Shown here piece after piece: positions 538-26,620 of a DNA stretch of 28,087 bases. This DNA comes from Ectocarpus siliculosus (taxonomy: Eukaryota > Sar > Phaeophyceae > Ectocarpales > Ectocarpaceae), in NCBI GenBank assembly GCA_000310025.1, contig FN647849.1, forward strand, positions 219,763 to 247,849, read 5' to 3'. The notes beneath the pieces were generated by a model. That model did not search any database. It had not been told where the DNA came from and was given only the letters and a program-made list of their open reading frames with translations. The position numbers and the translations under genes were made by a program. How positions within the stretch are numbered: the first letter of the stretch is position 1; every line of letters begins with the position of its first letter.

Positions 538-2703
538 GTGTGCTTGTGTGCTTAGAAAAATATGCATATGACAAAAAAAATATAGAAGTACTAGCTTGAG
601 TTATTTGCTAAGGCGCGTGTGCGTGCGTGTCTCCGCAGTTGCAGCATCGACTGTACTGATCGGCCGATCAACGAGAATTCGTCGGTCTCAGTGCGGATGA
701 AAAACGAAAAAAACGCTCCTGAAGGTCATGTGTGTGTCTTCAGTATTCGCACCGGCGGCGCTAAACCGGCTGACCAATGAAAATGCGTCAACCTCAGTGG
801 GGCTAGAAACGGAACGTGTTTCTTCTAAAGGCCGTGACCTGGGACCCCGCGCTGGGAGGGTCACGGGAGAGGCTAGGCTATTATCCGGGTTAAATGACAG
901 AATGGTGTGTGCGGTGTTTTTGGTCATACGCGTCGACGGGGCCAGTTGCCGGACCACTGAATTCGCCAGTCTCTCTGCCACACGCCGAATCTTCTAGCGA
1001 GCGTCGACCTCTTCGGCAGGGCGACGAAGACGGGAAAAAAAGGCAACCGTACGGGCGACGTTTGCATTTGTTTTCTCTTTGCGAGCACAGCTAAAAGCGG
1101 ACGACGCTATACCCATCTCTGAATGAGACTTGCAAAGGTGCTCAGTGTCCTACCGAGGGTATTCCTCTCTTATGTTATGTTTCTGGTTACACCACATAGG
1201 GATATGGTGTTTCTTCTGCCACTTATCCTTGGGGTTTGTCTTTCAATTTTCCAAGACATCGATGTGGTCGCACCGCTGGCTTCGGGTGCTTGCGCAGGGT
1301 CGGGGGCACAAGGAAGGACCGCATATTGTTTACCCCCCCCTCGCTTGAATTGTTTTGGTTTTTCACGCCGTTTTCGTTGTGAATGTGCCCTTTGTGCCTC
1401 TCGTTACCACCGAGAGAGCAGAAAATAAATGATCTCAGACACATTCCAAAGTAGCCCCACCCCCCCCCACCCCCCCTCTTTTCCACCGTGATCCCCGGTT
1501 ACTGCCGTGTTTGTTCCGGTGTCCACAGAACGAGAGGCGGCCACATATCTCCTCATGGAAAACAACGCATCTCATTTGTTTTTTTGTCATCTTTCTCCCT
1601 CGGCCTATTGCCCCCGTTTCGTCCTTGACTTGCTCCCTTGTGTGCTGCGGCTTACCACATCCCGGTCACCTGAAAAGCCGGAGCTTTACCGGAACTAAAA
1701 CTTGACTTTCCTTTGTGCTCAATTCAAACATGCTTCTGTTGTATCTGTTTTGCATTTGCAGCTGCCTTTGTACTCAACTCAAACATGCTTTTGTGTGTGA
1801 CGAACCTATTCTTCAATTTTCAGCTGCCGATTTGCGTGGCGAAGACGCAGTACTCACTTTCCACGGACCCGTCGGCTAAGGGGGCCCCGTCAGGACATAC
1901 GGTGAGGGGGTGGAGACGTCACCAGAGAAGAGGTTCTCCTACCTCTGTGCGAACGCCCAACAGCTGTTTTCTGTGTGTCGATGTTTCTTTGCAGGGTATG
2001 AAAACCGGGGATACTATGTATTTGCTTGTCTTGTGATTGTCATGCCGCGGGACTCGGGAAGTTCCCACGTGTTTCTTTCTGCTGTTTTCTGTACAAGTGT
2101 ACTGTCCATTTTTTGCCTGGCGGTCATGACTTTGGGAGGGTCAAGTCTGTGTTTATCTGCGTTGCTGTGGCAGCCATTCCTTCTGATTTAAGCAAATACC
2201 TTCCGCAAGGGCACTGGTTGACCTGACAGCTCGCTCTCGAACCTCTGCCATGCGAAAGTATGCGCATCCGATGTCAAACCCTGCCTGCCGTCGGCCATGG
2301 GCACAACTCGATGACGGCCGGGGCCTGGAGTGTTGATCTATTCCTATGTGGATTCAATGGAAGCACGACGAACAGCTAGGTTTGGTGGTTCGTACCGAAC
2401 CTGTTTTTTAGCTTTTCAACTTTTTTTTTTTTGCATTTGCATACCGCTCGCTCTTGTTCTCGTGGGTTTGATTCGTAGTTGTTTATTGTTACTCACACAG
2501 CTGGTTGTTGTCTTTTTTCCGTCTACCTATTGAAAATCTTGGTCATTCAGGTGTTCGTACGCGACGTGCGGGCTTCCGTGGGGGCAGGGTTCGTCTACCT
2601 TCTTTGCGGCGACATTAACACCATCCCGGGCCTTCCAACACGGCCGGGTTTCTATGACGTTGACATCGACTTCGGCACGGGGCGTGTTGTTGGTCTGTTT
2701 TGA
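430..2703 (+). CDS. FTHFS: Formate-tetrahydrofolate ligase, 3' partial (three last exons)
   Basis: The enzyme makes 10-formyl-THF from formate, THF and ATP in one-carbon metabolism. It is normally cytosolic, either alone or as the C-terminal domain of C1-THF synthase. Three exons join in phase 0: 430-537, 1824-1901 and 2551-2703. The first reads as the family segment before LPIC ([22 protein letters not shown]). The second gives [13 protein letters not shown] and KGAPSGHT. The third gives [29 protein letters not shown] and the terminal RVVGLF followed by TGA. These are the conserved final ~110 residues of the family in order and without gaps. Both introns are GT-AG, 1286 and 649 bp. The ATP-binding N-terminal region is not in the window, so I cannot tell a monofunctional enzyme from a fusion protein. 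Confidence 0.95.
1712..1828 (+). repeat. Tandem duplication of a splice-acceptor segment
   Basis: Two diverged copies of a 55-62 bp unit sit at the end of FTHFS intron 1. One starts at 1712 (tttgtgctcaattcaaac) and the other at 1767 (tttgtactcaactcaaac). Each ends in a cag followed by ctgcc (cag at 1759-1761 and 1821-1823). Only the second acceptor continues in the coding frame, so the first is a decoy copy. Confidence 0.75.
1824..1901 (+). CDS. FTHFS: FTHFS exon b
   Basis: The acceptor is ttcaattttcag (to 1823) and the donor gtgagg (1902). There are 26 codons, starting with [13 protein letters not shown], a signature segment of the family. Confidence 0.93.
2551..2703 (+). CDS. FTHFS: FTHFS terminal exon
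   Basis: The acceptor is gtcattcag (to 2550). Fifty codons are followed by TGA at 2701-2703. It contains [12 protein letters not shown] and ends RVVGLF, the usual C-terminus of the family. Confidence 0.95.
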
Positions 2704-4507
2704 TGTGCTGATGAGGAAGGGAGGTCGCGTTTTTGTTCAGTCCCTTGTTTTGGTTGACCTTCTCAATTGGAGGTTGTTCCGACGCTTGTTTTTGTTTTTT
2801 TCAGACGGGAATTGTTTGATCGCCCGTCTTGGTTTGCTTTAGACGAAAATTGTTTGGCTTGATACACCCTGATAGACGGATCGTTCCTACCCTTTGTTTC
2901 TTTCTCAACAGCTGCCTGATATCCCATTCGATAAGCCTTGCTTAGCATTGCTGACATGCCTCCTCGTACCCCTCATGTGGATCTCCTAGACCTATTGGGA
3001 ATTTCTTACGTCTCTCATAGCCTTGCTTGATGTCCCATGAACCCCGCAACGGTTGCCTACGGCGTGGGTACCGATTTTGTCAGTGTCGCGTGTACCTGAA
3101 GCGTTCGCCGGGTGATGTTGCTGGAGTGCTTGGCTCCTTGGGACGGGGATGTCGGCAGCAGTTGTTGCCAGAGACAAGCCTTGCTTCACCCTTGTTTTTT
3201 TTTTTCATCATGCTCTCGTACACTTGTGGGATAGCGAGACCGGCCTATGTACCCGACCGACTGACTTGTCCCCTGCTTCGTGTCGTGTGTGTGTGTTGTT
3301 CCCGTACCTAGCATACCCGAGTAGCAGAAGTAGGGGATTGGGTGGGCGGGATGCGGAGATAGCCAATCAATCTGACTGCTGTTGTTTGTTGGGTTGTGGT
3401 GATGTTTTGTCAGGTTCAACCTTCCCTGGCCTCTTCAGCACATATTATTGCTGTTGTAGATCTCCAGCACACAACTTACGGATGGAATGAACGTCGGTGT
3501 GAGAGATTCAAATGGCGAGGCAACTTCCTTTCTGGTGGTCCCACAACGTGCCACGATGCAAGTGTTGTTTCCTGTCTAACGGAGGACGCTACGCCGCTGT
3601 TTCCCCTCAGGGCTGTTGTTTCTCTTTCTTGAGTCGGCCATCACCATCGATCGCCGTAGCAGACATCTCTCGCATTGAATCGTCGGCGCCAACCCCAAAA
3701 ACAACGTGGCGCAAAATGAGGAAGAACGACGCGGCGAGGCAAAGAAGGCGAGCGTAAAGCACCGTGCTTTCGAGCAAGGGGAGCGATCGCTTCTCGGCTG
3801 AGAGAGATTTTGATTTTTTCCAAACCATGGGTATCCGACTTTCGGGACCGACCGTCGACCAATTGTGTGAAAGAGCCCAGAAGAACGAAACACAGCACGG
3901 CTACTTGCTGCTGGGGTACACAAGCGACTGTACTAGTCCGCCCTTAGCGCAGTGCACGCATCCTTTCGGTATAAGGTGTTCAAGTACTTGAGTGACAGCA
4001 CAGGTAATAATGTATGGACTGGCAACGCAAGAAGAGACCGATCGTGTACAGAACTCTGCCCTATATTCACGCGTTGGGCAGCCTCCATAAACTCCTCCGG
4101 AATACCGTTTAAATGATAATCCATATCTGAGCCTACTGCAGTAGTGCCAAACCTTTAGCTGTGATACTGAATCTGTGGTGTGGGAGAGGAGACATGACGT
4201 GGTTCAGACTATGGCGTGAGGGTGTGTGTTGGTTTGCCGGGCAGACTGTTACAACCACGGAGCCCAGGTACCCGGTAATTTGATCTTCTAGATGTCACGG
4301 GGTCCCCAAGGCGGTTCAATATCATTTTGTGCAACACACGACAACGCAAAGAAGTCAGTGGATCCTTGGGGCCGGACCAACAATTCCTGTCGTACGAGGT
4401 GTGTACTCGACACCCGTGGGATCTCTTCTTTGATCTGGCCCGCGATCCTCGCCGTTTTGAGCAGGGGTTGAATGCTGTAGCCCGAATCACATCGCGCCTC
4501 GATCCCC
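2704..4507. other. Intergenic: FTHFS 3' flank and DZIP1-like 5' flank
   Basis: No reading frame here resembles a protein family, and all ORFs are short and overlapping. T-rich stretches follow the FTHFS stop. AGCCTTGCTT recurs three times (about 2934, 3020 and 3175). I saw no AATAAA near the stop and no convincing TATA box before 4508. Confidence 0.5.
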
Positions 4508-4518
4508 ATGAACGATGT

Positions 4519-4550
<32 letters not shown>

Positions 4551-4626
4551 TACCAATCGGCATGGGCACCAAGATACAAGGGGTGGGCGTGTCACTCGGA
4601 CCCGTGGCGTTCTACTTCAGACAGAG
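4508..4626 (+). CDS. DZIP1: DZIP1-like exon 1 (polyQ, start of DZIP domain)
   Basis: ATG at 4508, then MNDV, ten Gln from a pure CAG tract (4520-4549), then GVSLGPVAFYFRQ. The donor gtgggt (4627) splits an Arg codon (ag|g). The preceding in-frame stop is at 4478-4480 with no other ATG between. Confidence 0.85.
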
Positions 4627-7600
4627 GTGGGTGTTTTTGCAACAGTCGGGACTGAGGCGCAGCTGGATGTTGGTCGGTTTGCTTCTTTGCTCTCTTGCCA
4701 ACAGCAGGGATGTCGTGGTTTCTTTTCGGTCCTTTCGCGCCAAGATTATATCAAGAATGCATTGTATCCAACTTGCATACAGCGTGTAGTGTATCCGATC
4801 AATGATCCCATCACGACGGCACAATAGATTTCACTACCTGGTACGTTCTTTGTTGTGCTCGTGCACCGCGAGAGGACACTCCATCCGTCCCGGAACACAG
4901 AAGGCACATCAACAACATTGCCCGTGGTTTGGATAACATTAGACTTCAGAGAAGTTCAGCCTCCGTTGTGTGGATTGAACGTTCGGTGGCCAGTGGCGCC
5001 GTGCTGCCCTGACCCCCAACATAGACTGGACTTTCTTGTCCTGGTTGCCTCCGATGCCTGTGTATGTGCGGGAGGTTGACGTAACAGCTCTATGCATCTG
5101 GAAAGGGTTGCTGTCCGTGTGGTCTGTGTGTGTTTTCAGCTGCAGTTGCCGCATCTTTCCGCTCTGAGGAGGGTGAGAATGTCGACGTGTTACTGATGGG
5201 TTTGACCGGGGCAACTGCGTCTTATGGAGCGAGTGAATGGCTCTGGCGGCAAGCGTTGTTCTTCTACTAGTAGGAAACAGTACTAATCATGACCAAGACC
5301 TGAAACAAGGCCTGAAAATGAACTCAAAATCAGTATGTCCTGCCTGCTTACGAAGCGGTAGAAGATGCTGGTACAGGGGAATCGTCTTCCGAAAGTCACC
5401 CCGTTGCAACGATGATATACTGAAGAATATGGTAGTGAAGCATATTTTTATCTAATCGTTTCAACTGATCACGACCAAGGCAACGTAGTTTTCCTGAAAG
5501 TCAACACAATATCAAGTATGTCCTGCCTCGGCCGTTGGTGCGAGCCATTCAACAATCATCTCACCCAATCCCTCTCCCAACAGGCACGGAAAGCTCGACT
5601 GGAAGAAGCTAGCCCGAATCGACGTCGACGAAGTCGTGCGAGAAGTGGACATCGCGGTGCTCCAGGACCTGCTGGACGAGGTGAAGTGTTTGCACACCAC
5701 GCGGATCCGATAAGCTCCGGTATCCGCACAACAACAAGTTATATATCTGCAAGAACACCTCATAGATCCCATGCCCAACCCATGCTGCTATAGAACACCA
5801 TATTGTACTGGACACATCGTTCAAGAAGCACGGTTGTGCAAGAGATTAAGGTTGGACTCATCAAGAGCATCAGAACATTGGTGGCAAGGTCTTCATGAGT
5901 CTGCGTAGGAGGCAAGGGTTATAGGCCATGAGAAACCATTTAGACTGGCCTAAGGCAACCAACTAGCAGTTTGGTGAGGGGTTGTTGTGTACCACAGCAG
6001 TTGTACAACGCGAGAGGTTCGTGCGACGATCACAACATATCCTCCCACAGATAATGTAGGTCTACTGAAGCGGGCTCCTGGGTGAAACTCTTGGCTCAGA
6101 CTGATCATCATCACCTTTTCATGAGCATGGTCCATGCACGCACTAAGCGCAGGTCACCTCAAGATTCTGTTCACCTTGAGCATTCCTGCATACACCATCT
6201 GCCTTGAAACCCGGCTGTCTGTGCCACACTTTACGTCTGGTACCAACCCGCCTCGGACTAGCATAAAACAAGTGTGCCTAGAGTAAAAGTGATTCCTGAA
6301 CAAGGCCGCATGGATAAGGCAACATGGATAAGGCCGGTCGCCCTGTGTAAGGCCGGTGTAACCGCGTGACACGGATGGAATACTACTCAAGTTATCCCAT
6401 ATTCTGGACAGTGCCCGGTGCCGGGTATAGGGCTGGCCAAACTAAGGGTGACCTCGACGTGACCGTCTTAGTCGTACGAGTCCACTCCCAGGGAGCCTCT
6501 CCCTCCTCCCTGTATTGCATCCACGCTGGCATCGAGCTCGTACATGAATGCCTTTCGAGAGGGCCACACATTGTCTGGTTGTCTACATTGCTGTGTCGTG
6601 TGATAGGCGTGTATCAGGCTTGTGATATCGACCTACCACGAATAATAATAGGAGCGTACCGTGCGTTCTTCAATTTGCCGCTGGTCAACACTGTGCCGGC
6701 CGGTGCTTTGCGGTGGTGCGTGCATGTCCGCCCAGGTTGCATTCTGTGAGGTGTCTGCGGAAGACATACCGCCGACCGGAGTCGACGATCTCTCTGTCAA
6801 GCTCATACGCCTGTCGCAGCTCACGATAGAGTACCTGCTCCACGTGCAGGTAAAGCACCCTGCCATGCCTACCAACACTCGAGAGACCACGGTAGTTACC
6901 GTCTGACCGATGAAAACTTACCCCCCCGGCAGGACACAACTGACGAAGAATTAGCTCCCCCCCCCCCCCCCCCGGCGGAAGGGAGTACCGGAGGAGACCG
7001 GACGACCGACTTCTGCCTGTGTGTCGAATGTATTGCCGTTCGCCCTCGTGCTCTCGTAAGATGGCTTCAGATCGGGTCGTACTTTCGAGAGTAATCGCTG
7101 CCCGTTCCATGTAGACAACGGGAAATCAGGGTGGGGAACGGTGTATTGCATGCCTTGTGCGCGTGCCGTGTATATGGTCGTTGCTCGTTCTTGTTCTTCG
7201 CCCGTCCACTCAGAGGCACCGCTCTTTCAAGACACTGGCCTGCGGAGGGCTGTGTAAGAACGACACATATGCGTTAGTGCACAGTACACTGCATATAAAG
7301 GCCGAGAGAATTCTATCTGGTGTTCTTCTGTCCTTTCGGATCTGGCTTGTCGATGCTCTCCTCGCAAGCTATGTAGAAGGCTTCAACGATGGGCCAATCA
7401 CCATTCCACGGTCATTCTTTCGATACATTTCGGGAATGGTTCTAGGAGTGCCAGGAAGGCTACATTCAAGGCCTGGTTCGGCAGCTGGAGACGGCCAACA
7501 ACAACAACCAGCGTCTCAAGGTAATGCCAACGTTAGGCAGGGTCATGGTAAGCGAGACGAAATCAACGACGTTACGCGATAAACAGTGTGCCCTACCCCA

Positions 7601-9538
7601 ACATTTGCTCAGGGGAAAAAACTCGGCAGTCCCGAAATAAGGAGCCGGAAAGCACCTATTTTCAAATGGATCAGAACTCTAACGTGCTACTCGCTGTGAG
7701 GGTGCACGACGAGTGGGTTCTTGAAATGCACTTGATGTTTAGCGATTTGTGTTGCTCAATGTTGTCCTTCTCGCTGGGTGACACGTACAGGCCTATGCCG
7801 AGTTGTCGGCCAAGGACGGTAGAAGGATGAAGAGAGAGTCCGTGCAGCACAAGCACGTCCTCAATACTTGCCAGGTAAGCACAACGAGCCCGACGACTCT
7901 AGGCGGGTCGCATGCGCGTGTCGTAACTCGCTGCTGTAGTATTTCTGACTTTCTTGGTGATGGAAGTATAAAAAAGTTCCACGAGTTTCTCACGCGATCT
8001 CAACTCTCTAGATGGGCATATTTGTGCTGTCGGTCGCCCCGTGAGACGGGGCTACGGGAAACTGTCCCATTCCTCACACAGAGAGCATAGTAGGTTACAT
8101 CCACAAACAATCGATTCATTCTCGGCCACATCGAAGTCCCTATCCCTAATCAAGCCGGCGAGACAACGAAACCAACGTCCCGGGCACAATTCCACGCTTC
8201 CGCAGAGTGTTCTCCGACAGTACGGCATCGACCCAAGAGCAATCTGGGAATCTCTCCCGGCCGAGGTAGCTGGAGCAGGAGGGTGTTCAGGGCCGGGTGC
8301 GCAACCGAAAGACCCGCGATCTTGTCTACCAGCGGCCGGCATGCCGTCTTGCGGAAGCCACAAGCCCTCCGCTCCACCCCCTCCTGTGGAGGATTCGGGG
8401 GTGGCGCAGGGGGGTCATAACTGCGGGGCCGCAGTCAGTGGTGGGGGGGCGTCGACGTCAGGAACCCCGGTGGCAAGGGTTTGCGGGGCCTGCGGAAAGG
8501 CGTTTTCGTCCGAGCAGTTCCTGAGAAAGCACATGGATCGCCGGCACCCGGATCTAGTGCGGCAGGACACTGCACCCCTCGCGGAGAAAGAGGAAGTAAA
8601 AAACGACTCTCCCGCTTCGACACCGCTGCCGCCGCCTGGGGAAGAGGCTCGGGCGACCGAGGAACAACCCTCGCCGCCACAGCAGCAAGAAGAAGCGGCG
8701 GGAGGAAAGGGAACCGGAAGCGAAGATAAGGGGGGTGGTGAAAACGTCATCGGCTCCGAGGTAGTGGAAGGAGCGAGGCGACTCGGGGAGCTCGTCCGCG
8801 AGAGGGAGCACGCCCGGTTCAAGCTGGAGGTGGTGGCTCTTCGGAGGGAGGTGCAGGACCTCAAGGTTCGGCCGTTGAGTTCTTGCCGCATGGCAAGAGT
8901 ACTTGACAGGATAGGGCGTTCATCGAGGAAATTCAAGCTGGTCTTCGCAGTAGAAACGAGTAACTTTGGCGCAGGGATGCATCACGCTGTCAAGGCTGTA
9001 CTAAATCAGCGTCGCGCCTAGCACAGAGAACAGGAGGGTGACCAAAGCGATGTTTTTCTAAAGGGCGTGATGTGCCAGTGTGTAAAGGCGGGCGATCGTT
9101 ACTGGCGCTTCGCAGTCAACGTGTAGGACGACCGCACGTCCACGTTTTTTTGCTGAGGTCTCCTATGTCATCCGAAAGAAAATTTGCCTGGTGTGCGCGA
9201 TATCCGTGCAATCAAGATTCACGTCCGAGGTTATGGTGTCTTCGTATGAAGACAGATGGCCTGAACCCCCGATGACCTTTGCTATGTAGTACATATTATC
9301 GTGTTCGTTCTGGCTTCGTATGAGGTTCATGTTGCAGCTGCTGCCATGTTTGTTTGCGCGTACCCGGGGTCTTCGGGCATATCAATCGGCTACAAACTCA
9401 CTAGGCTTACTCCGCAAAGGCATGACACATCGGATGGATTCACAGAGTTTACCGCCCATCCGTTCTCCTCCCTTCCCACCCACCCACTCCGTGTCAACGT
9501 CGTTTTCCGCCCGCCCATTCTCCATTCTGTTCCTCTCT

Positions 9539-9614
<76 letters not shown>

Positions 9615-12600
9615 CCTCTGTCTCTCTGTCTCTGTCTCTGTCTCTCTCTACCTCCCTCTCTCCTCCTCCCTCATCAATGCAGCGGAAAGGTGAAGCAATC
9701 CAGTGCTTGCCGCAGCAGCAGCCGCAGCCGCAGCCGCAGCCGCAGCCGCAGCTGTCGCCACCACCAACATCATCGCCGTCACCGTCGATGCCGCTGCCGC
9801 CGCGGGGTGGCGATGGAGATCGCCGCCGCCGCCGTGTGCGTGGGATAATCTCCATTAGGTGCTCGACAAAGTGAAACTCTTGCCCACTATATGTTTTTCG
9901 GTGTCAGGGGCGGATGCTTGTTTTCATGGTATGACGGTTTGGTCATTTCCCCGTCCAACCTTGCAGTCATTGTTGAGTCCATCAACTCCAGCTAGTCCAC
10001 TGTTGTGAAGCAGCACAAGCCGAACAATAAATGGCCTACAACAGTGACTTAGCACCGTTCCAAACCATTCGCCGTAAACCTGACGCCCAAACGTGCTGAA
10101 TCAACATGTGGGTGTACCTGCCAATGTCAACCGCGTTCGCTCTCCTCAGGCGAATCCTGCGCGAGCAGGACAGGCGTCGTAAGGAGAGAGCCATGGACAA
10201 ATGGCGGGCCTCTGTCACTACCACTACCACTACCACAATTACTACCGTCACGCCCCCAGTTCCGCAACCTCAACCGCCAAGGCCAAAGCAGCCAATCAGG
10301 CGCTGGGGACTCGACGAATTACTGCTGATGGCTCACCGGTGGGGATGCGGTCGTTCTTTGGCTGCGTACTCTTTCCTTCGGTCAGGAGTTGTTTTTCCGC
10401 CGCTGGCTTCGGCCGTGCGTTTCAGCACGGAAATCTCATGAGGCATGCGCATTCGAAAGGGCGGGGGTAGATGCCATTTTGTAGAACGGAGGTCGACAAC
10501 TGGATGGTGGCCTTGCGGGAGGAGCAGAGGGCATGGAGATTGTTGTGACTCGTCGGAATCGAACTCAGGCTGCGGACGCACGCCTAAACGGGCTACCACG
10601 CACCTTGCCTATGTATCGTTACCTGATATGACCAAACTTCTTTGTGCTACTCTGTTTTCCTGTCCTGCAGGAGAGCAGATCGCGCCGCCCAGGAGGCTGC
10701 CAGAGGAAAGGGGGCACGCGTGGAAGGATCACAGCCGTCCCATGGCAAGGGGGCGCACGCGTTGAGGCTTACCTCTGGGGTAGAGATTGGGGCACATTTT
10801 CCAGTCGACCGGCAGCAGGTAAGGGGAGATGTCAATCGAAGAGAACCCTGTGGCTTGCGATTACCGATTGAAATGATACTCCGGTGTACATGTCTTCTCC
10901 TTGTCAGCGGACTGCAACGATGAGTTGAAATAATGTTCTGTTTGTCTGTGATCCAGGGGAACCCTGCTTTCTTCCCCTCACGACAGGTAGTTGCAGAAAT
11001 TGCACACGCAGCAGCAGCAACAACACGACCGTCATCGCAAGCATACAACAGTCCAACAGATTTCGTTGCTTGTACGAGATATAGAGATCACCACCCTTTG
11101 AAAGCGTCGCGGGTATATCGCGAACTGCTGTGTAAACACATGGGACCTAGTACGAGCCCCGCTTCGCACCTGCTGCCTTCTTGTTTGGAATCTGGTCGAC
11201 ATATAGGCAGAGGAGGCACGAGAGGAGGTGGTGAGGGAGCTCCGAGAGCGCGCGCGCAGGTGGGTCGGGATATGGGCAGCGGCCAGCTGGGCAATAAATA
11301 CGCACGGTTCCCGTCTCCGCTGTTCGGCCGTCTACTATCGTAACCTTTTCTCGCCGGAAGGCGTACAAATAGTTGTTTTTGATGCTCGACCCACGCAACA
11401 GCCGGGAGTCATTCCCCCCTCGCCCCTCTCGTCAACACACATTGCTCCAACACCCCTTCATACAGCTACGGGGTAGACGCTGAACGCGCCGGAATGAGTG
11501 GCGCGGAGTACCAGGCTAAGCTTGGACAAGTGTTGGCGAAGAGACACGAGAGTGTGGTGGAATCGTCATCGACGGCTGCCACCGGGCTCGATGATGCCTA
11601 CGCGCTCGTAGCGAAAGAACTGCGGCTCGCAGGAACCGCACGCGAAAACAACGCCAACAGCAATAACGCTAAGACGGGAAGCTCCAGAGGCAGCGTTCAC
11701 CTCTTTCCGTCAATGGAAGGCGGTCGTCTTGGGCATAGCTTGTCGTCGTCCTTTCCTCGACCCGACAGCTCTGGCGGCGCTGCTTCTACTCAAGCCACCG
11801 CTTTTTCTCGTGGTTCAAGGCTCGACACGCCTTCAAAATTAGAGCCTTGCGTGAGGTCCTTTTCTCAAGCCATCGGGGGCGGGGGTAGCGGCAGCGGTGG
11901 TGGCAGCACCGCGCCATTCGTCACCAGCCGGTGGCAACCCCCTCGAAGCGGAGGTGGTGGCCCTACTGCGTCACATACGACAGGGGCAAGAACGGGGTTG
12001 GGGGACGGGAACGCGGTCGAAGGGGGCGTGAGGGAAGGGATCGGTTTGGGCTGGGGAGGCGGTGGTGGTGTTGATTCGAAGGTGAGATGTGCTGTTGCTT
12101 GGTGCTTGAAGTGTGGTGCCGGTTCCCTGGTTCGGTGTGGGCGCTATCAAAACGACCCGCAAAGAGTCCCCGTTGAAAGAAAGGTAGTGGGGGCCATTTT
12201 TCCACTAACGTGACGTAGTCAGGACAAACTCAAGGCTGCGTCCTTGGCAACATAACTAAGGGACGCAGTTGTGTTACAGAAGCTCTTCAGCTTGGTATTT
12301 TCTGCGAAGATGTCGCCGGAAGGCAGGATGCAATTCGCTGAGCCGCAATTGCTTCTTGTGGCGTACAGTACTGTAGCGCGACAGTGAAACTAACAACGGC
12401 GGTTGGTTGCTGCATGGCGTCCAAGCCGCAAACAGGCAGCCATTCCTTGGATATTTTGTTGTCACGTGGTGCATGTCTTGGTTGTCATGGATTGGAACCG
12501 TTGCTTCGTAATCGCCTCCTCGTTTATCAGGAGTAACCGAGCCTAACGTCCCATGCATGCAGGAAATGCTCGCGATTGCCAAGCGGACAGCCGAGATAAA

Positions 12601-15600
12601 TTGGGAAGCCGTCAAACGCAGGCGATCTGCCAGGTAGACAGAGAGTACGAAAGAAGCAACCGGAGAATTGGCTGACGAGTGGGGAATACGCCTCGAAGTA
12701 GAGACAAGACATGCACACATGCACTCCAAAACCCTGGCGTATATGATCAACACACACTGTATCGGTACCTCTGACGGTTGGTCCCCTGTGCCCCGTAAGC
12801 GTAAACCGTAACTCTGCTGGTTGCTACACTTGGATTGTCGGATGATACCTCAGGATTACGATTGAAGAGGGTAGCGATTTTCAAAGCGTCGTGCATGCAT
12901 TTCGACCACATGCGCTCCAATGTTCAAGGCCATGAATTCAACGCCGAACGCCCAGCTTGTTTCTCGAAACCCGCGATATATTCGACACCGTTCAGCGAAG
13001 CGGCGAAGGCAGCGGCAGCATCCACGTCGGTAACCGCCGTGTCCGGCATCAACGTTGACAGTGTTTGTCGTCAGGGAGAGATAACAAGAACAACGGCAGC
13101 GGCGGCAGATCTGTCGACACCGACTGCCAAGGCAGTGGCCACAACAACGGCGTCTGGTGCCTCGCTTTGCACCGTTCCTTCTCCGGCGCCGGAAACTCCC
13201 GGCGTGGCTGCACAGAGCCCCGTAGTCGTATCGTCGTGGCAGCGACCTACCTCCACAACGACCGCTGGTACTCTGGGCAGCGAGCACAACACGCTGGGCG
13301 ACGAGTCCCTGGTACCCCGTGGCGTTTTAGCATCTGAAGCGCGAGAACCGACGAATATTGTTATCCAGGTGGAGAGCCGTAGTGCTAGCCGCCGCAACGA
13401 TGTCTTGGCCAATTCTAGCGGACAAGACGAAGAGAAAGAGGAGACAAATGACTGTGACGGGGGCGTTGGGACCGACACAATGGTGAACGCACCGTACAGC
13501 GGTGTTGATGCTGGTGCCGGTGCCGGTGCTGATGCTCCTCACAACCGACGAGCTGTCACAGAGGCTACATCGGATACGAAACAAGCTGAAGGAGGATGGG
13601 CGTTCGCCACGAGCGCCGTGTCGGGTGCGGAAATCGATCGGGGCACCGGCGAACCGGGTGCGGCGGTGGCGGCGGTAGGGCTGTTTGGAAAGGACAAACG
13701 TCCCCAGCTTAGTTTCGCACTTTCTTTCTCCGACGACGAAGAGGAAGGGGAGGGAAGCGGGGATAACAACGATGGCAACAGCCACAGTCGAACGGGCGAT
13801 GCTGCTGTGGTGAACGCGGCGGGGGATGGGGCTACTTCGAGACCCGACGACTCCCTTGCCTCCTCGATCCCAGCCAAGACACACATCCGACCTATGCCCA
13901 GTTTTTCCTCGTCGGATGCCTCTGTTGTCGACGAACAACGTCTAGAAGACTTTGGCGAGGATAGACCGAGAATGTCGTCTGCCAAACAGCTGCCAGACAA
14001 AAGCGGAGACCGATATCACGTGGCAGTGAAAGAGGCGGCATTGACCGACAGGGAGGAGGGCGAGGACCAAGAGAAAGCCGGTGCCGGGGCGACGCAAACG
14101 GCGAAGTCTATTTTAGCGACCCCGGTCGTTTCCCCTCGCGAAGAACTGGCCGAAAGGGCTTCCACGAGGTGGATTAATACCGTCGCCGCTGGTGGTCTTG
14201 CAGCGCAGGCGTCCGTGGGGCACTTTTCCGAGTGGGACGATGATCGCAACGGCGGGTGGGTGACATTTGCAAAGCAGCGCATGTACACACAATCAAACGC
14301 ACAGATCCAATGGGGAAGGCTCCGTGAGTCTGTCGATTGAGATGGCTACAGTACCGCTGCTGTTTGTTGTTCTCCTCTCCGTTGCCCAATTTAGTCGCGT
14401 ACTGCAATTCCAAGCGTTGGCGAACTTACCCTTGGAAAAGGTAGCATGCGGTCTCTTCGCGCATGCTACATACGCCGTCTCCACCTACCTTGTGAACGTA
14501 TTTTCGGGTGCCATAGGGTCACGATGGGCCAGAAGGAAGAATCATCCCACAATAGCAAGTAAAGATGGCGAGACCAGAATAGACATGCGACGGCATTCAT
14601 CATCCTTTTGGATGGAAGCACGTATCAGATGCGTATCCCGACCCCGCCCGGCATCAGACCGTCGCCCAAAAATCTCTCTGGAGGAGGCACGCAGCGAAAC
14701 AAGTAAGGACCCACCCCACCCCCCGCAGAGGTTCTGGAGCCGACGAAGGCCGCGTGCCACCTTCGTTTGAGCCCCGGCTGACAACGACGTCGGACTTTCT
14801 GGATGGATCTATAAGGGACTCCAGTGGCGGAGGTGCCCTTGGCGCATTAAACAGCCGCGGTGGGGTTGAGAGCACCGCCATGGGGACGGCGGCGGAAGTG
14901 GCGACAGAGGACGGTGTTGAAGGCAAGCTTGCTGACGACGGGCAGGAGCCTACCGCTGTGCGGTCGGATGTGGGGGACACTGAGGTGTGGGTGGCACTGC
15001 TATGGTTGCTCGCGTATGCTTTGTCTCGAAAATTTGGCCCACTGTCTCAAACGACATACCACCAACACGACGGACTGAACGTGAATACGTAGGCGATTGC
15101 CTTCGAGGGCGCAGCGTAAGGTGGTGATGGGTATTGTTGCGGTCGAGAACCACTCCCCCGCCACTTGTTCTTTGTACTGTAGTAGGATTACATTTTCTGT
15201 CCGCTTTGTAGGGCCTAGAATGTTGAATTTTTTCGAAGTCTTTTCTGAAAGCTCGTAATGTTTTCTAATTCGAAAATGGAAGCAACATTCAGACATGTGA
15301 GGGCAACCACAGAATATGCCGTAGACAGTGAGGTGGCAAGATGGGCGTAGCTGGCCAAACTTCGGGGAGTAGCCACAGATTGGAGCCAGTGGGCCACGCT
15401 GAAACCGCGTGCAAATACAGCGTTCCAGGTGCCCCCCTCTCACAACCCGAATCGTATAGGCCGTTGTGCCTTTCTCACGAGAGGTTGAACTTTTGGCGTG
15501 CACTCCATGTTGTACGTCTCGCAAATTGGGTCCAGCCGCAGCACAAATGTGAAATAACCATTCATTATACAAAGCAATCGTGTTGTTGTCAGCACGGGGT

Positions 15601-16865
15601 AGACGTTGTATGTCGTTCATCTTTCGATTCATTATTTAGCTCGACCGTTCTGTCGGCGTGGCGGCGTTAGAAAATGCGCCTCTAGACTATGGTTCGAAGA
15701 GTGCGGCCATGAATGATGCTTGGCACACACCCAGCAGTACATAGTACAAGTGGACCGGGCTTCCAATATCCCCCTCGTCTTGTTGTCCAGCTACGTACAA
15801 GATCGACGTCAGTCAATGAGAGCCGGTTAGACTACTCGTGGAAATTCAAGAAAAATAAACACAAAACACCTGCGCGCCGCTTCCAATGTGAATGTTTTGT
15901 CAAGGACAAGGCTAGTGCTTCGTCGGACGAGGGAGGTGGAGAAAAGCAATGTCGCGATTCGTCGGGAGGAGAGGGGGGAGGAGAAGGAGGAGGGAGGGGG
16001 GAGGATGGGGTGGACGCTTTAGTGAGGCCCACTTATGGCCTTTTAACTCTAGGATCTGGGCTGTCGCAATTTCCAAAGAGGTGCGGACGTTGTGCGGGAG
16101 GATGTCTGCGTATGATTGTTGTGTGTGGCGTACTATGCTACCTTAGGTCCTGGTATCCCGCTATAGCCAGGACAGGTTTCGAAACCCATGTATGGTTGGT
16201 TGCGCCAGAGTACCAAGCACGCGAGCTGTTCACCGAACTGATCGTACGAAGCGACGAGGTTCATCCCAACCACGGGCAACGTGTGCGGTGTACATCCGCG
16301 CGACATGCTGAAAACGACAGCCAAGCAATGACTGACGTGGCTGGCCTCTGTGTCCGCTTTCAGCAGATCTCTCTGTAGCTCGCTGAATTAACGAATTAAC
16401 CCTATTGACTAACTCTCTGGTGAGGTGCAACCATTGCTTACACCGCACGTGGCAAGCTTTGTAGTTCTCGAGATGACGACATGGGGGGGCTTACAAATCT
16501 CCACGTGTCCTGCCGATATTACCATTTCGTCGTCCAAGGAAGTTTCCTCACCACACGATGAGATTTATTCAATGTTGCATGGGAAAATAATTTTGTCCGG
16601 GGTACCAGAGAGCTGGCATCGAGAAAATAATGAAGTTGGTATACCCCTCGCTTGTCGTTATCTACACAGGAAACAGCAGAAGAGCATGCCCACAACGGGG
16701 GGAGAAGCACCGACGATGGAGGTAGAAGAAGTAGGGCAAGCGTGGCAGGGAGTAGACAGTAGTAGAAGTATTCCTGCGAGGGCGCCGAAGGGAGAACAGT
16801 TAGCGGCAGGGGTAGTCGGTGGTGGCGGGGTTGATGACGAGGTCATCATGGTGGAAGAATTCTGA
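4508..16865 (+). CDS. DZIP1: DZIP1/Iguana-like basal-body zinc-finger protein, multi-exon
   Basis: DZIP1-family proteins act at the basal body and ciliary transition zone and influence ciliogenesis and, in vertebrates, Hedgehog signalling. Exons 1-13 (4508-4626, 5584-5680, 6736-6849, 7455-7520, 7791-7874, 8206-8865, 9683-9858, 10150-10338, 10485-10544, 10671-10818, 10957-10986, 11207-11259, 11466-12081) splice with matching phases into 804 codons. Family features appear in order: GPVAFYFRQR then KLDWKKLARIDVDEVV (residues ~31-58), KLIRLSQLTIEYLLHVQ (~94-110), a coiled coil, one C2H2 finger (C253, C256, H269, H274) with the DZIP1 C-x2-C-x12-H-x4-H spacing, and a C-terminal YGVDAERAGMSGAEY block (~600-614). 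The ATG at 4508 is the first after an in-frame stop at 4478. The 3' end is unsettled: short terminal exons are possible at 12223-12255 or 12563-12637, or an acidic Gly/Ser-rich tail may run to 16865. Exons 7-9 and 11 are less sure than the rest. Confidence 0.85.
5584..5680 (+). CDS. DZIP1: DZIP1-like exon 2 (DZIP N-terminal domain core)
   Basis: The acceptor is tctcccaacag (5583). The first base completes the split Arg codon. The exon reads HGKLDWKKLARIDVDEVV, then REVDIAVLQDLLDE, the family's 'DW..L..IDVD' segment. It ends in phase 0 at donor gtgaag. Confidence 0.9.
6736..6849 (+). CDS. DZIP1: DZIP1-like exon 3
   Basis: The acceptor is gcccag (6735) and the donor gtaaag (6850), phase 0 at both ends. 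It starts VAFCEVSAED and ends KLIRLSQLTIEYLLHVQ, matching the conserved end of the DZIP1 N-terminal domain. Overlapping frames on both strands here are shadows of this exon. Confidence 0.92.
6957..6973. repeat. C17 homopolymer in DZIP1-like intron 3
   Basis: Seventeen consecutive C. Length is likely unstable both in the organism and in the assembly. Confidence 0.8.
7455..7520 (+). CDS. DZIP1: DZIP1-like exon 4 (coiled coil)
   Basis: The acceptor is agtgccag (7454) and the donor gtaatg (7521). The 22 codons are in phase 0 at both ends and read EGYIQGLVRQLETANN then NNQRLK. The pattern is heptad-like, as expected after the N-terminal domain. Confidence 0.78.
7791..7874 (+). CDS. DZIP1: DZIP1-like exon 5 (coiled coil)
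   Basis: The acceptor is acacgtacag (7790) and the donor gtaagc (7875). The 28 phase-0 codons read AYAELSAKDGRRMKRE then SVQHKHVLNTCQ. This basic, helical segment sits where the family has its KEE.K.RKK stretch before the finger. Confidence 0.75.
8206..8865 (+). CDS. DZIP1: DZIP1-like exon 6 (C2H2 zinc finger)
   Basis: The acceptor is cacgcttccgcag (8205); a second in-frame acceptor exists at 8220. The exon has 220 codons. After YGIDPRAIWESLPAE comes a Gly/Pro/Ser-rich insert, then the finger (CGACGKAF, FLRKHMDRRH). An acidic Gln/Pro/Glu stretch follows, then the helical segment GARRLGELVREREHARFK. It ends ...VQDLK at donor gttcgg (8866). The frame stays open to 9021, but the helix ends at 8865. 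A shorter exon ending at gccgag (8264, donor gtagct) is an alternative. Confidence 0.85.
9541..9608 (+). repeat. (TGTC)17 tetranucleotide microsatellite
   Basis: Seventeen uninterrupted TGTC units are followed by imperfect CT/CTGT sequence up to the acceptor of candidate exon 7 (9682). The repeat therefore forms part of that intron's pyrimidine tract. Frames through it (Cys-Leu-Ser-Val plus, Gln-Thr-Asp-Arg minus) are spurious. Confidence 0.95.
9683..9858 (+). CDS. DZIP1: DZIP1-like exon 7 (Gln/Pro-rich), tentative
   Basis: The acceptor is catcaatgcag (9682), placed after a very long pyrimidine tract that includes a TGTC microsatellite. It reads RKGEAIQCLPQQQ, then Gln-Pro repeats, Pro/Ser, and a run of Arg. 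Phase 0 at the start fits exon 6. A weak donor gtgctc (9859) leaves phase 2, which fits exon 8. Confidence 0.5.
10150..10338 (+). CDS. DZIP1: DZIP1-like exon 8 (basic helix, Thr/Pro-rich)
   Basis: The acceptor is gctctcctcag (10149). It reads ILREQDRRRKERAMDKW, then a Thr run and Pro/Gln-rich linker, then RRWGLDELLLMAH. The donor gtgggg (10339) leaves phase 2. The helix is persuasive; the 3' boundary is a guess from phase. Confidence 0.55.
10485..10544 (+). CDS. DZIP1: DZIP1-like exon 9 (coiled coil)
   Basis: The acceptor is ccattttgtag (10484) and the donor gtgact (10545), phase 2 at both ends. It reads TEVDNWMVALREEQRAWRL, a charged helix that runs straight into exon 10 (LRADRAAQEAARGKG). 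Confidence 0.6.
10671..10818 (+). CDS. DZIP1: DZIP1-like exon 10
   Basis: The acceptor tttcctgtcctgcag (10670) and the donor gtaagg (10819) are both near consensus. It reads RADRAAQEAARGKGARVEG through GAHFPVDRQQ, and ends in phase 0. Confidence 0.7.
10957..10986 (+). CDS. DZIP1: DZIP1-like micro-exon 11, tentative
   Basis: Ten codons (GNPAFFPSRQ) lie between cag (10956) and gtagtt (10987). Since the exon is a multiple of three and phase 0 at both ends, including or skipping it keeps the frame. It may be a cassette exon or a chance match. Confidence 0.4.
11207..11259 (+). CDS. DZIP1: DZIP1-like exon 12
   Basis: The acceptor is gacatatag (11206) and the donor gtgggt (11260). It reads AEEAREEVVRELRERAR and ends with two bases (ag) of a codon completed by exon 13. 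A strong amphipathic helix. Confidence 0.68.
11466..12081 (+). CDS. DZIP1: DZIP1-like exon 13 (C-terminal conserved block, Gly/Ser tail)
   Basis: The acceptor is cccttcatacag (11465); the first base completes Ser. SYGVDAERAGMSGAEYQAK follows, resembling the family's C-terminal 'GI.P...GIS...F' block, then LGQVLAKRHESV. The rest is low-complexity Gly/Ser/Pro, ending GGGVDSK at a consensus donor gtgaga (12082) in phase 0. Confidence 0.75.
12223..12255 (+). CDS. Possible alternative terminal exon of DZIP1-like gene
   Basis: After gtagtcag (12222) ten codons (DKLKAASLAT) run in phase 0 to TAA at 12253-12255. It would give a short terminal exon in frame with exon 13. It competes with the 12563 exon. 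Confidence 0.25.
   Translation, partial: DKLKAASLAT
12563..12637 (+). CDS. DZIP1: Probable exon 14 of DZIP1-like gene
   Basis: The acceptor is catgcatgcag (12562), phase 0. It reads EMLAIAKRTAEINWEAVK then RRRSAR, with TAG at 12635. The same point carries a possible donor gtagac (12634) leaving phase 2. So it may end the protein or lead on into the long downstream frame, for example to the phase-2 acceptor ccgttcag at 12995. Confidence 0.45.
   Translation, partial: EMLAIAKRTAEINWEAVKRRRSAR
12805..14323 (+). CDS. Large acidic Ala/Ser/Thr/Gly-rich exon, function unknown
   Basis: A frame of about 1.5 kb stays open from 12805; its true left edge (a splice acceptor between 12853 and 12995, or an ATG at 12895) is not settled. 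The product is low complexity: poly-Ala, Thr-rich, and an acidic patch near the middle (SFALSFSDDEEEGEGSGD). Towards the end it becomes ordered (FSEWDDDRNGGWVTFAKQ). A perfect donor gtgagt lies at 14324, 17 bases before the TGA that closes the frame at 14338-14340. It is probably a 3' exon of the DZIP1-like gene, or else a separate unknown gene. I recognise no domain. Confidence 0.5.
14395..14440 (+). CDS. Candidate small exon following the long acidic exon
   Basis: The acceptor is an excellent pyrimidine tract ending caatttag (14394), and the donor is gtagca (14441). Entered in phase 1 from 14323 it reads LAYCNSKRWRTYPWK and leaves phase 2. No family is recognised. Confidence 0.4.
14583..14702 (+). 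CDS. Candidate exon, left edge uncertain
   Basis: In the frame demanded by the previous exon it reads HATAFIILLDGSTYQMRI, PTPPGIRPSPKN, LSGGGTQRN. The left edge may be 14583 or 14565, both phase 2. It ends at donor gtaagg (14703), two bases into a codon. Confidence 0.38.
14729..14984 (+). CDS. Candidate Gly/Ser/Asp-rich exon
   Basis: The acceptor is ccaccccccgcag (14728). One base completes a Lys codon, then GSGADEGRVPPSFEPRL, TTTSDFLDGSIRDSSGGG and an acidic tail ending VGDTE at a possible donor gtgtgg (14985), phase 0. The composition matches the other tail exons. Confidence 0.42.
15000..15904. other. No supported gene (probable intron)
   Basis: An open frame of 210 codons exists on the minus strand (15000-15632), and shorter ones on the plus strand. 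None resembles a known family or shows coding composition like the neighbouring exons. I treat it as an intron of the DZIP1-like 3' region. Confidence 0.45.
15905..16021 (+). CDS. Candidate Gly/Glu-rich exon
   Basis: The acceptor is atgttttgtcaag (15904), and the donor a good gtgagg (16022). The 39 phase-0 codons start DKASASSDEGGGEKQC, continue with Gly/Glu repeats and end EDGVDAL. The start phase fits the exon ending at 14984. Confidence 0.42.
16670..16865 (+). CDS. Candidate terminal exon with acidic C-terminus
   Basis: The acceptor is gttatctacacag (16669). Entered in phase 2 it reads KQQKSMPTTGGEAPTMEVEE and ends GGGGVDDEVIMVEEF followed by TGA (16863-16865), a plausible acidic protein tail. 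The preceding candidate exon leaves phase 0, so an exon between them is missing or one boundary is wrong. In phase 0 the frame stops after 30 codons. Confidence 0.4.
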
Positions 16866-22587: not shown

Positions 22588-25500
22588 CTTCACATTAAAC
22601 TCGTGTCAGTTGCTAATCCCAAAATGTAGCAAAAACGCGGTCCCTGATCACAAAAATGCTAAGAGCCATCAGACGATCCAAACAACACTCAAACTATTAT
22701 TAGCAAGAAAAGGGTACACAAGCCCGAAGAGGTACTCCTACATCCCTGCAGCAGCACGTTTGCGTGCCCAAAAACTGAAGTACCCGTCCACACACTACAT
22801 TCGACTACAGCAGCATCACCCCCCCTGTCCTACACTTTACCAAAATGAATGTCAACTACAGCGTACAGCTGTCTGGAGTGCTGCCTGTACAATACAATAA
22901 CACCATAGGGTAGGCATGGTACAAGTTCGGGGCGCGCAACTGCTGTCTGAAGTGTCACAATGCGTCCGTGGACATGAAGTGAAAAATAACAACCAACCAA
23001 AGCCATCATTGCAATTGACAATCACCGAATCTACCCCTGATCATCTGTGTTTGACACAACAGTGATAATAATGGACACTGATGAGAAATCGTTCCACATT
23101 GAAGGGCTCTTCCACGATGCAGGTACACAATAAAGGCATCCGGGCTATCCGTGCCATCTCTGCCGCGTCTCTCTACAAAACCAAGGACGTCATCACATAC
23201 ACACTAACGCTCAGGAAAAAAAATGGAAAATATTTGACAAAATGTTTGACAACACAAAATGTTCGTCCGTGCGTCACGGTTCGATGTCGTCCGTGTGCTC
23301 CGGCGCCGCTGCTCCGGTGTCGCTGCGGCCAGTCCTAGCACGACCAAAATCGATCCGCTCCGTCCGTACACGCTGTCGTTGCTGTCCTTCCCCAGTCGGT
23401 TCCTCGCTTTCTCCCTCGTTGCACTTAGGGTTCTTGGTCGTCAAATTCTCGCGCCGAAGGGTCAACCAACCCACTCAGCTCGTCACCTTTTTTTTAACCC
23501 TGACCCTTTGATGGCGAAGCCAGGTTACTGAGACAGTACAGCTCCCTCTAGCAAACCTGGGGCCGTGTACATAGTGCCCGTCCACCTTTCTGATGGCGTC
23601 TGCCTCCGCGCACAAAACTGAGATGGACATTTTGCTGTCTACACCGACGGCCATGAGGCCCGCGCATCTGCATTTTTGTAATCACGCATGTTGCTGGTCG
23701 GCTGGCGACACGGGAACTTTAACCCTCGTAGTAATGGGTAGTCGTCTCCCAATGATACGCTCGTCTTTTGGATGCTATTCGTAAAAGGGTTGCATGCAGG
23801 GGTCGGGTTGTGCTTTCCAGTCCAAGCGGTCACGGCATCTCAACCATACAACAGTTACAACGTCTGTGTCGCCCGTGGTCCACTGATGACCGACCGGGTT
23901 TGATTCCGCTCCCAAATTCGATTTCCGGGGTCACGAGCGTTGTTGCCGTTCATCAGTGGCCGAGTGCCCTCGGTAACCCTTGTGTGTACGCTGAACTTGT
24001 TCGAGGCTGCTGGCTCACTTCGGAAATTGTTCCGCAGTTCTTTCACCAATGGTAACACGACGGTCATTGGGAAACCTTGAGATATTTCATTGCCATGCTG
24101 AATCTTGAAAATCACCATCTTCATCCTACCCGCTACCACCCATTACCATATTTCCCCTCTCCCTTTCCTAATATGTAGCCATAACGTACGGTACGGGCAG
24201 ACACGGAACGGTGTGTCCTCCCGGGCCCAGCTGTAGATGAAGGAGCGTCGTCACTTCCATTTTTGACACGTGCCCGATAAGGATGTGTTCTTGCTTCTTT
24301 CCGGTACATTTCACTTTGTTTTACCCGTGCTTGTTCGAGATTATTATGAAGGTGTGTGTTCTAACTTGTTATTTTGCACGTATGCATATGTGTGTAGCGT
24401 GTTTGTCGAGGACCCTACTGGTAAATCCAAGCTTCAAGCGTGCGTGCTCTACTGTACGCATCTCTCTCTAAACCCCTTTCACTCGGCCCTCCCGCTTCTC
24501 TCCCCCTCCATAGGAAACTCGTTCACCGTGCACAACGACAAGGACTTCGAGACGCAGGTCCTGACGGCCAACTACCGGCATGGCAAGTTCTCGAGTTTCC
24601 AGAGGCAGCTCAACATGTACGGCTTCCGGAAGGTGGCGGACTGCTCCGACCGCACGTACTCCCACCCTTTCTTCCGCCGCGATCAATCTGACCTCCTCGC
24701 CCAGGTGCGTCGCGTCGTGAACGACACCGTCGGCGCCGCCAACGCCAACGCCACCTTCAGCCCCAGTGGAAACCCGGTCGTCAAGCGGCCTGCGCACGCA
24801 CTGGCACCCTCTGTCCGCCGCCCGAAGCTGCAGCAGGCCGGGGGCCGGAAAGGCGAGTCAGCGGACAACAGCGAGAGCGGCGGCGGTGGCTCCCGCCGGC
24901 AGGCCGCCCGCAAGAAGGCCCGGCGCTGCCGTGACGTCACGCCATCCTCGTCTTCTGCGGTGAGCACCGCGACGACCTCTGCTAGCGGCGGTGGCGGCCT
25001 TCGGCGCAAGCTGGCGAGCGGTGGTGGCGAGGCCGTCGGACGTGCAAGTCCGAGAGGGGACGAAGACAGCAGCAGTACGGTCTTCCCAGCCCCGTCGCAG
25101 CAGCAGCAGCAGCAGCAGCCGGGTCGCGCAGCCGCAGCAGCAATCGCCAGCACTACCCCGGCGGCACAGCAGACACGTCACACACCCCGCCCCTGGCCCC
25201 AGCAGCAGCACCAGCAGCAACACCAGCGCGTCAACGAGGAACAGCTGCACCACCAGCAGCGGCCGATCTCTGCGCAAGAGATTGCGGCCGGGCAGCGGAA
25301 TCCCTCCCTGCAGGAGTTCTCGTCCGTGTGGAGCCGGCACACGGGGCGCTGGGACGTGCCGGCCGTGAACGGCAGCAGCCTCGGTGATGACGGCGGCACG
25401 TGGACTACGGCTTCCTCTTCCGCGGCCTCGTCGGTGGAAGAGGCGGTGTCCCCGGTCCTGCTGCCCACCACCCCGGCCAGCCTCGACTGCAGCAAGAGCT

Positions 25501-26555
25501 TCGTCCCGCCGTTCCGGCTCCAACAGGACGTGTCTCCGAGCCTGGCGGACATGTGCCGCCGCAATGGCTACGGCGGACACCCCCCCAGCAGCAGCGGCGC
25601 GCCCACCAACACCTTCGGGCCGAGCAACCCCGTGCTCGTTAGCCCCGCCCCGGTGATGTTTGGCGGCGGCGGCGGCGGCGGCAGTGGCGGCGGCCGTGAT
25701 GCCGAGGTCGATGTGCTGGACGGCCGGAGAGGAGACCCCATGCCTTCGTCCACGGCGGCGACGTTTGCCCGCTCGTCGCCGGCTATGATGTACCACTCCG
25801 AGGCGCAGGGGCCCGTTGGACAGGACGCGCCGGGAGGGGGGCTCTACATCATGGGCGGCGGAACGGGGTGGCGTGGCGGCGGCGGCGGGAGAGGTGACGA
25901 GGGCGGGATTCCTCCGGCCGACGAGGCCGGCCACGGGCCGACGCCCACTAGGTGTCCGTCCTTCGACAAGATCTTCGGGCGCCAGGAGCCGCGCTCTTCG
26001 TCGCACGGCAGTGAGTGAATAAATGTACTAGCTTTCGCGCGAGATTGTTTCGATTGTTTGTAAGGAAACACGTTGGGAAGCTGGGTTTAGGGTGTGAAGA
26101 GATGGGCATACGGTCTGCATGCCCCCTCCCTGTTGCTATTTCCTCATAAACTCCTTTTCTCGCCAAGGTGGCGCTCCGTATCCCCTCGTACTTTTTTTTT
26201 TTTTCCTTCTCTGCCTCGCGCTCACGACTCTCCGTACGCTGGCTTCCCCATGTTGTGTCAGACCAACCCGGCATGGCGCAGCTGGACAACCCTCGCACCG
26301 CTAAGCCGGGCGCCGCCATCGACACCGGCAATGCTGTTGTGCCGGTTTCCCCGACAGCCTCGGCCAACGCCACTGCGGACGGATGGGACCTGGCGTGCCT
26401 AGGCGGCGCGGGCTGGGGCAGCCCGGACACAACGGAAAGCCCCGCGGCGGAGGTATGGGCGGCGATCCCTCCCCTCGTAGCGCAGGAGTCCTGCGAGCGG
26501 GGGGTGTCGCCAAGACCTTCGCCGTTCGGTGAGGCTGGCGGCGTGGGCGGAGTGT

Positions 26556-26620
<65 letters not shown>

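Follow-up and report, generated by a model that had tools for sequence, protein, structure and literature searches.

Results

A DZIP1-family gene split into small exons

The window, a stretch of 28,087 nucleotides from the genome of the brown alga Ectocarpus siliculosus, carries on its plus strand a gene that we rebuilt manually from splice sites and reading frames as 11 exons between positions 4508 and 12081. All ten introns in this interval are GT-AG introns with matching phases, and the joined exons 1–11 encode 777 residues without a stop codon. An earlier note on this DNA had proposed a DZIP1-family gene split into many small exons, with its start at 4508 and an exon border at 12081. The independent rebuild arrives at the same start and border, and the proposal itself is supported by the rebuild, a match to the Pfam model PF13815 and a spliced alignment; the 13 exons counted up to 12081 in the note become 11.

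Exon 1 (4508..4626) opens with the start ATG and encodes a poly-Gln run and the first part of a Dzip-like_N domain (..FYFRQ), which continues through exon 2 (5584..5680; HGKLDW..LLDE) and exon 3 (6736..6849; VAFCEV..LLHVQ). Exon 1 is backed by the rebuild, Pfam and the spliced alignment, and exons 2 and 3 by the rebuild, a genome search and the spliced alignment; each of the latter two also matches PF13815 alone (E = 8.2e-8 and 4.8e-8, respectively). Exon 4 (7446..7520) and exon 5 (7791..7874), drawn from the rebuild and the joined Pfam match, hold the C-terminal part and the end of the domain. Exon 6 (8206..8865) encodes a linker, a C2H2 zinc finger, an acidic and Gln-containing stretch and a charged segment that looks like a coiled coil by eye. 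Exons 1–6 and their phases, the Dzip-like domain and the finger motif are the demonstrated part of the gene.

The following exons are Gln/Pro repeat-rich (exon 7, 9683..9858, without homology), charged, helix-like by eye and Thr/Pro-rich (exon 8, 10150..10338), charged and helix-like by eye (exon 10, 11207..11259; AEEAREEVVRELRERAR) and marked by a 'YGVDAERAGMSGAEYQAKL..' block, referred to here as GVD..GMS, with a Gly/Ser-rich stretch (exon 11, 11466..12081). Exon 9 spans 10671..10818. By eye, charged, helix-like stretches occur in exons 4–6, 8 and 10. Splice sites and phase are the sole basis for exons 7–11, as they are for the tentative exons 12, 14 and 15 described below, and such joins allow choice. 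A short open stretch after an AG at ~10987 was dropped from the model because, by eye, it has no in-phase donor downstream. Two simple repeats lie in this region, a GCA array at 4519-4550 that encodes the poly-Gln run of exon 1 and a TCTG tetranucleotide array at 9539-9647 in the intron before exon 7; the length of either might differ among strains.

The Dzip-like_N domain

The profile search of the joined N-terminus suggested in the earlier note gave a significant result: against the joined exons 1–5 (163 residues), PF13815 (Dzip-like_N) scores 102.2 bits (E = 2.1e-29; cut-off 27.9), with a match that covers model positions 1-117 of 118 and ends at residue 152. The gene carries the N-terminal domain of the DZIP1 family. 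The note had spread this domain over three exons; those three hold its core, whereas the full match spans five. Judged from these sequence matches, membership of the DZIP1/Iguana family is supported. DZIP1 (Iguana) proteins help to construct the base of cilia and flagella. A search of solved structures with residues 1-284 named no DZIP1 among its 20 matches (E up to 1), which were mostly zinc-finger proteins aligned at the finger, the best being CTCF (E = 0.0055).

Further family loci in the genome

We searched the genome (189.5 Mb in 492 contigs; match counts are lower bounds) with PF13815 and found at least five open-frame matches at at least three loci, namely the window gene and one locus each on contigs C12 and C26. 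Exons 2 and 3 of the window gene are both above the cut-off in this search. At the C12 locus (G000:C12:1656363-1660930), four exons were modelled, which when joined score 96.8 bits against PF13815 (E = 1e-27; model positions 1-103 of 118). At the C26 locus (G000:C26, minus strand, around 285076-285300), a single exon carries the entire domain match, which scores 51.4 bits (E = 1.3e-13; model positions 3-76 of 118) and covers the first two thirds of the domain, the part shared with the window gene. Behind this domain runs a low-complexity open frame of 498 codons that putatively belongs to the same gene.

Pairwise comparisons of the domains are well separated from the maxima of 500 shuffles each: identity is 45.5% between the window gene and C12 (77 columns; score 168 versus 55), 33.3% between the window gene and C26 (75 columns; 108 versus 48) and 30.1% between C12 and C26 (73 columns; 106 versus 39). 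The positions of introns in the domain differ between C12 and the window gene, and the domain exon borders differ among all three loci, which fits old duplications.

Splice junctions recovered by alignment to paralogues

Spliced alignment of positions 4300-7600, in which any GT and any AG were allowed and a paralogue from the same genome served as the query, provided a control on the manual junctions. With the C12 query, the alignment selected 4626/5584 (phase 2) and 5680/6736 (phase 0) with a score of 148. On 60 dinucleotide-shuffled sequences the score averaged 37.6 (s.d. 5.7) and peaked at 56, and the reverse strand scored 39. The C26 query returned 5680/6736 with a score of 92 (shuffle maximum 54, n = 60; reverse strand 33). 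Both junctions, which had been named in the earlier note, are therefore recovered by the manual rebuild and by an automatic procedure. At the third junction, near the domain's end where conservation is poor, the C12 query chose the acceptor 7557 instead of the 7446 of the manual model, which is a point against exon 4 as drawn; we retained exon 4 because the joined Pfam match passes through it.

A single C2H2 finger and the GVD..GMS block

The zinc finger in exon 6 (8482..8547, plus strand; CGACGKAFSSEQFLRKHMDRRH) has the pattern C-x2-C-x12-H-x4-H and is the only match in the window, scanned in six frames, to C-x(2-4)-C-x12-H-x(3-5)-H. Pfam finger models reach E = 0.0005 at best and stay under their cut-offs (20.4 versus 25 bits), so that the single C2H2 finger expected behind the domain in this family is present as a motif with sub-cut-off Pfam scores. 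The C12 paralogue shares both the Dzip-like_N domain and a C-x2-C-x12-H-x4-H finger with the window gene, its one motif in the plus frames of its stretch (L007) lying at 8779. The two differ in the linker between these elements: in the window gene, residues 152 and 255 mark the end of the domain match and the start of the finger match (~100 residues), whereas the corresponding residues in C12 are 123 and 143 (~20 residues). The 'family spacing' that the earlier note had ascribed to the finger accordingly applies within the finger and does not extend to the distance between domain and finger. At the C26 locus, the minus-strand frames of a 9.9-kb stretch (L006) contain no C2H2 motif in a scan that an intron-split finger would escape.

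The GVD..GMS block in exon 11, which the earlier note gave as the C-terminal block of the protein, may resemble a conserved C-terminal block of animal DZIP1. No Pfam model matches it above the cut-off (the best is MDM1, E = 0.028, 13.8 bits versus a cut-off of 27). The genome search with this block (E up to 10) returned three matches, namely two of the gene's own exons and contig C16 (E = 5), with no second genomic copy at E < 5.

Tentative continuation beyond position 12081

Although 12081 had been put forward as the end of the gene, the sequence there is a splice donor (gtgaga) and holds no stop codon. Because of this, the gene is incomplete at 12081 and we infer that its coding region continues. 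A tentative extension on the plus strand adds exon 12 (12563..12633), chosen by GT-AG sites and phase only; exon 13 (12996..14255), which lies within a 511-codon open frame; exon 14 (14729..14986), chosen by GT-AG sites and phase; and exon 15 (16670..16865), which encodes an acidic C-terminus (DDEVIMVEEF) and closes with a TGA at 16863-16865. The extended model would comprise 15 exons in phase, joined by GT-AG introns, and encode 1371 residues.

The best support for this continuation is the 511-codon open frame (12805-14340), which compares to a longest open run of 326 codons in 500 mononucleotide shuffles of 12562-14400. In the region of exon 6, 349 codons are open, and the longest run among 500 shuffles reached 340, a narrow margin. 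As both regions were picked for their long open frames, these tests lend weak support. A Pfam search with the C-terminal 594 residues of the tentative model gave no matches, nor did a search with exon 12 alone, leaving exons 12–15 without homology. Second-position GC is 0.19-0.39 in exons 1–5, a strong coding pattern, and 0.47-0.64 in exons 6–15, a weak one; the introns of the model, taken together, have a value of 0.515.

Other features of the window and other ciliary families

Upstream of the gene, an exon of a formate-tetrahydrofolate ligase gene lies at 1821-1904 (plus strand; PF01268, E = 7.4e-8), and this neighbour likely ends near 2701, by eye. Positions 1-360 are rich in homopolymers (runs of six or more make up 48% of bases, versus 2.0% elsewhere) and look like poor assembly. 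Downstream, an open frame at 24267-26018 encodes an HSF-type DNA-binding domain (PF00447, E = 4.2e-18) and is followed by a CAG array of 20.7 copies (26558-26619). Neither Rfam nor a tRNA scan found anything in the window. Elsewhere in the genome, a broken PsaA/PsaB-like fragment with one internal TGA (G000:C109:105538-105705, L019; E = 2.8e-6) is possibly an insertion of plastid DNA.

Profile searches of the genome matched two of five ciliary families. B9-C2 gave eight exon matches on contigs C18, C20, C21 and C23, and IFT57 gave one match (E = 4.2e-8); of the 14 control genomes, 3 were also matched by this model, below its cut-off. The models for Chibby, FAM92 and CEP290 CC5 had no genome matches in an exon-by-exon search that ran without a positive control; because they found nothing in the control genomes either, we do not take this result as absence.

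Discussion

We conclude that the locus is very probably a nuclear gene for a DZIP1/Iguana-family protein with a Dzip-like domain, one C2H2 finger and long low-complexity or charged stretches, most likely a protein of the basal body and transition zone. A gene of this family is to be expected in any flagellated organism and is ordinary here. What our analysis adds is an exon model for a probable flagellar-base protein, its extension past 12081 and the existence of at least three family loci.

Two alternative readings of the locus are compatible with family membership, so that our confidence in them and in the preferred reading is not meant to sum to one. The window gene could be a paralogue that has diverged and taken on a different role, with the C12 gene as the true DZIP1 orthologue, a reading that we regard as possible without favouring it. 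The C12 gene combines the domain (PF13815, E = 1e-27) with a finger ~20 residues behind it, and given this shorter spacing it may be the true orthologue; the window gene has a ~100-residue linker and a tentative long, repeat-rich tail, and the two genes differ in the introns of the domain. Yet the fit to the family model is at least as good for the window gene, both in score (102.2 bits for the N-terminal 163 residues versus 96.8) and in coverage (positions 1-117 versus 1-103 of 118). It is also conceivable, if rather unlikely, that our model fuses two genes: one, DZIP1-like, that stops at some point between exons 6 and 12, and another downstream of it that includes the frame 12805-14340. This frame has ATG codons of its own, in-phase joins can be found given the freedom of choice, and behind the finger Pfam matches neither exons 12–15 nor, above cut-off, exons 7–11. 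Against such a fusion stand the ten in-phase GT-AG introns up to 12081 and the lack of any stop ahead of the donor there, as well as the C26 locus, where a long low-complexity frame (498 codons) likewise follows the domain in what is putatively one gene. That the window gene is a decayed copy seems very improbable: two further family loci could carry the function, but the 11 joined exons run without a stop or frame break, and both domain and finger are intact.

Taking the locus as a gene for a DZIP1-family protein, a role can be proposed by analogy with work on animals. In flies, the N-terminus of CEP290 recruits DZIP1, which in turn recruits Chibby and Rab8; Rab8 is bound by the N-terminus of DZIP1, which favours the GDP-like form (PMC7793253). 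Dzip1, Fam92 and Chibby are described as an ordered module in flies, and the same report detected no homologues in C. elegans (PMC6904220). If the algal protein behaves like DZIP1 of flies and vertebrates, its most likely place is the basal body and transition zone of the flagellum. There, the N-terminal domain may bind partners such as CEP290, the GDP form of Rab8 and Chibby, as in flies and mammals. This binding would start the assembly of the flagellar membrane and of the transition zone, the gate, in motile cells.

The three loci offer a way into the question of how DZIP1 functions in an organism that may lack Chibby and FAM92. A bolder proposal, which we consider improbable, is that three ancient members of the DZIP1 family are in use in this lineage, of which two have the finger and one lacks it. 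On this view, they may act at the base of the flagellum in the absence of Chibby and FAM92 and perhaps divide the work, for example between the two unequal heterokont flagella.

The distribution of the family has been surveyed by BLASTP in 11 organisms, a set that includes no stramenopile; DZIP1 is reported as one of six satellite proteins found in every flagellated organism of the set, among them Chlamydomonas, Tetrahymena and Trypanosoma, and as absent from non-flagellated yeast and Arabidopsis (PMC12203921). Another study lists Ectocarpus with the ciliated groups, and its main text does not name DZIP (PMC10425847). In the open-access literature, we found no paper on DZIP1 or DZIP1L in brown algae, Phytophthora or stramenopiles, and none that pairs Dzip-like with flagell-.

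Compared to known systems, the window gene shares with animal DZIP1/Iguana, vertebrate DZIP1L and Drosophila Dzip1 (CG13617) a Dzip-like_N domain of near full model length that is followed by a single C2H2 finger. Animal DZIP1 carries one finger behind the domain. The window gene differs from animal DZIP1 in its poly-Gln, Gln/Pro, Thr and Gly/Ser-rich stretches and in a tentative length of 1371 residues.
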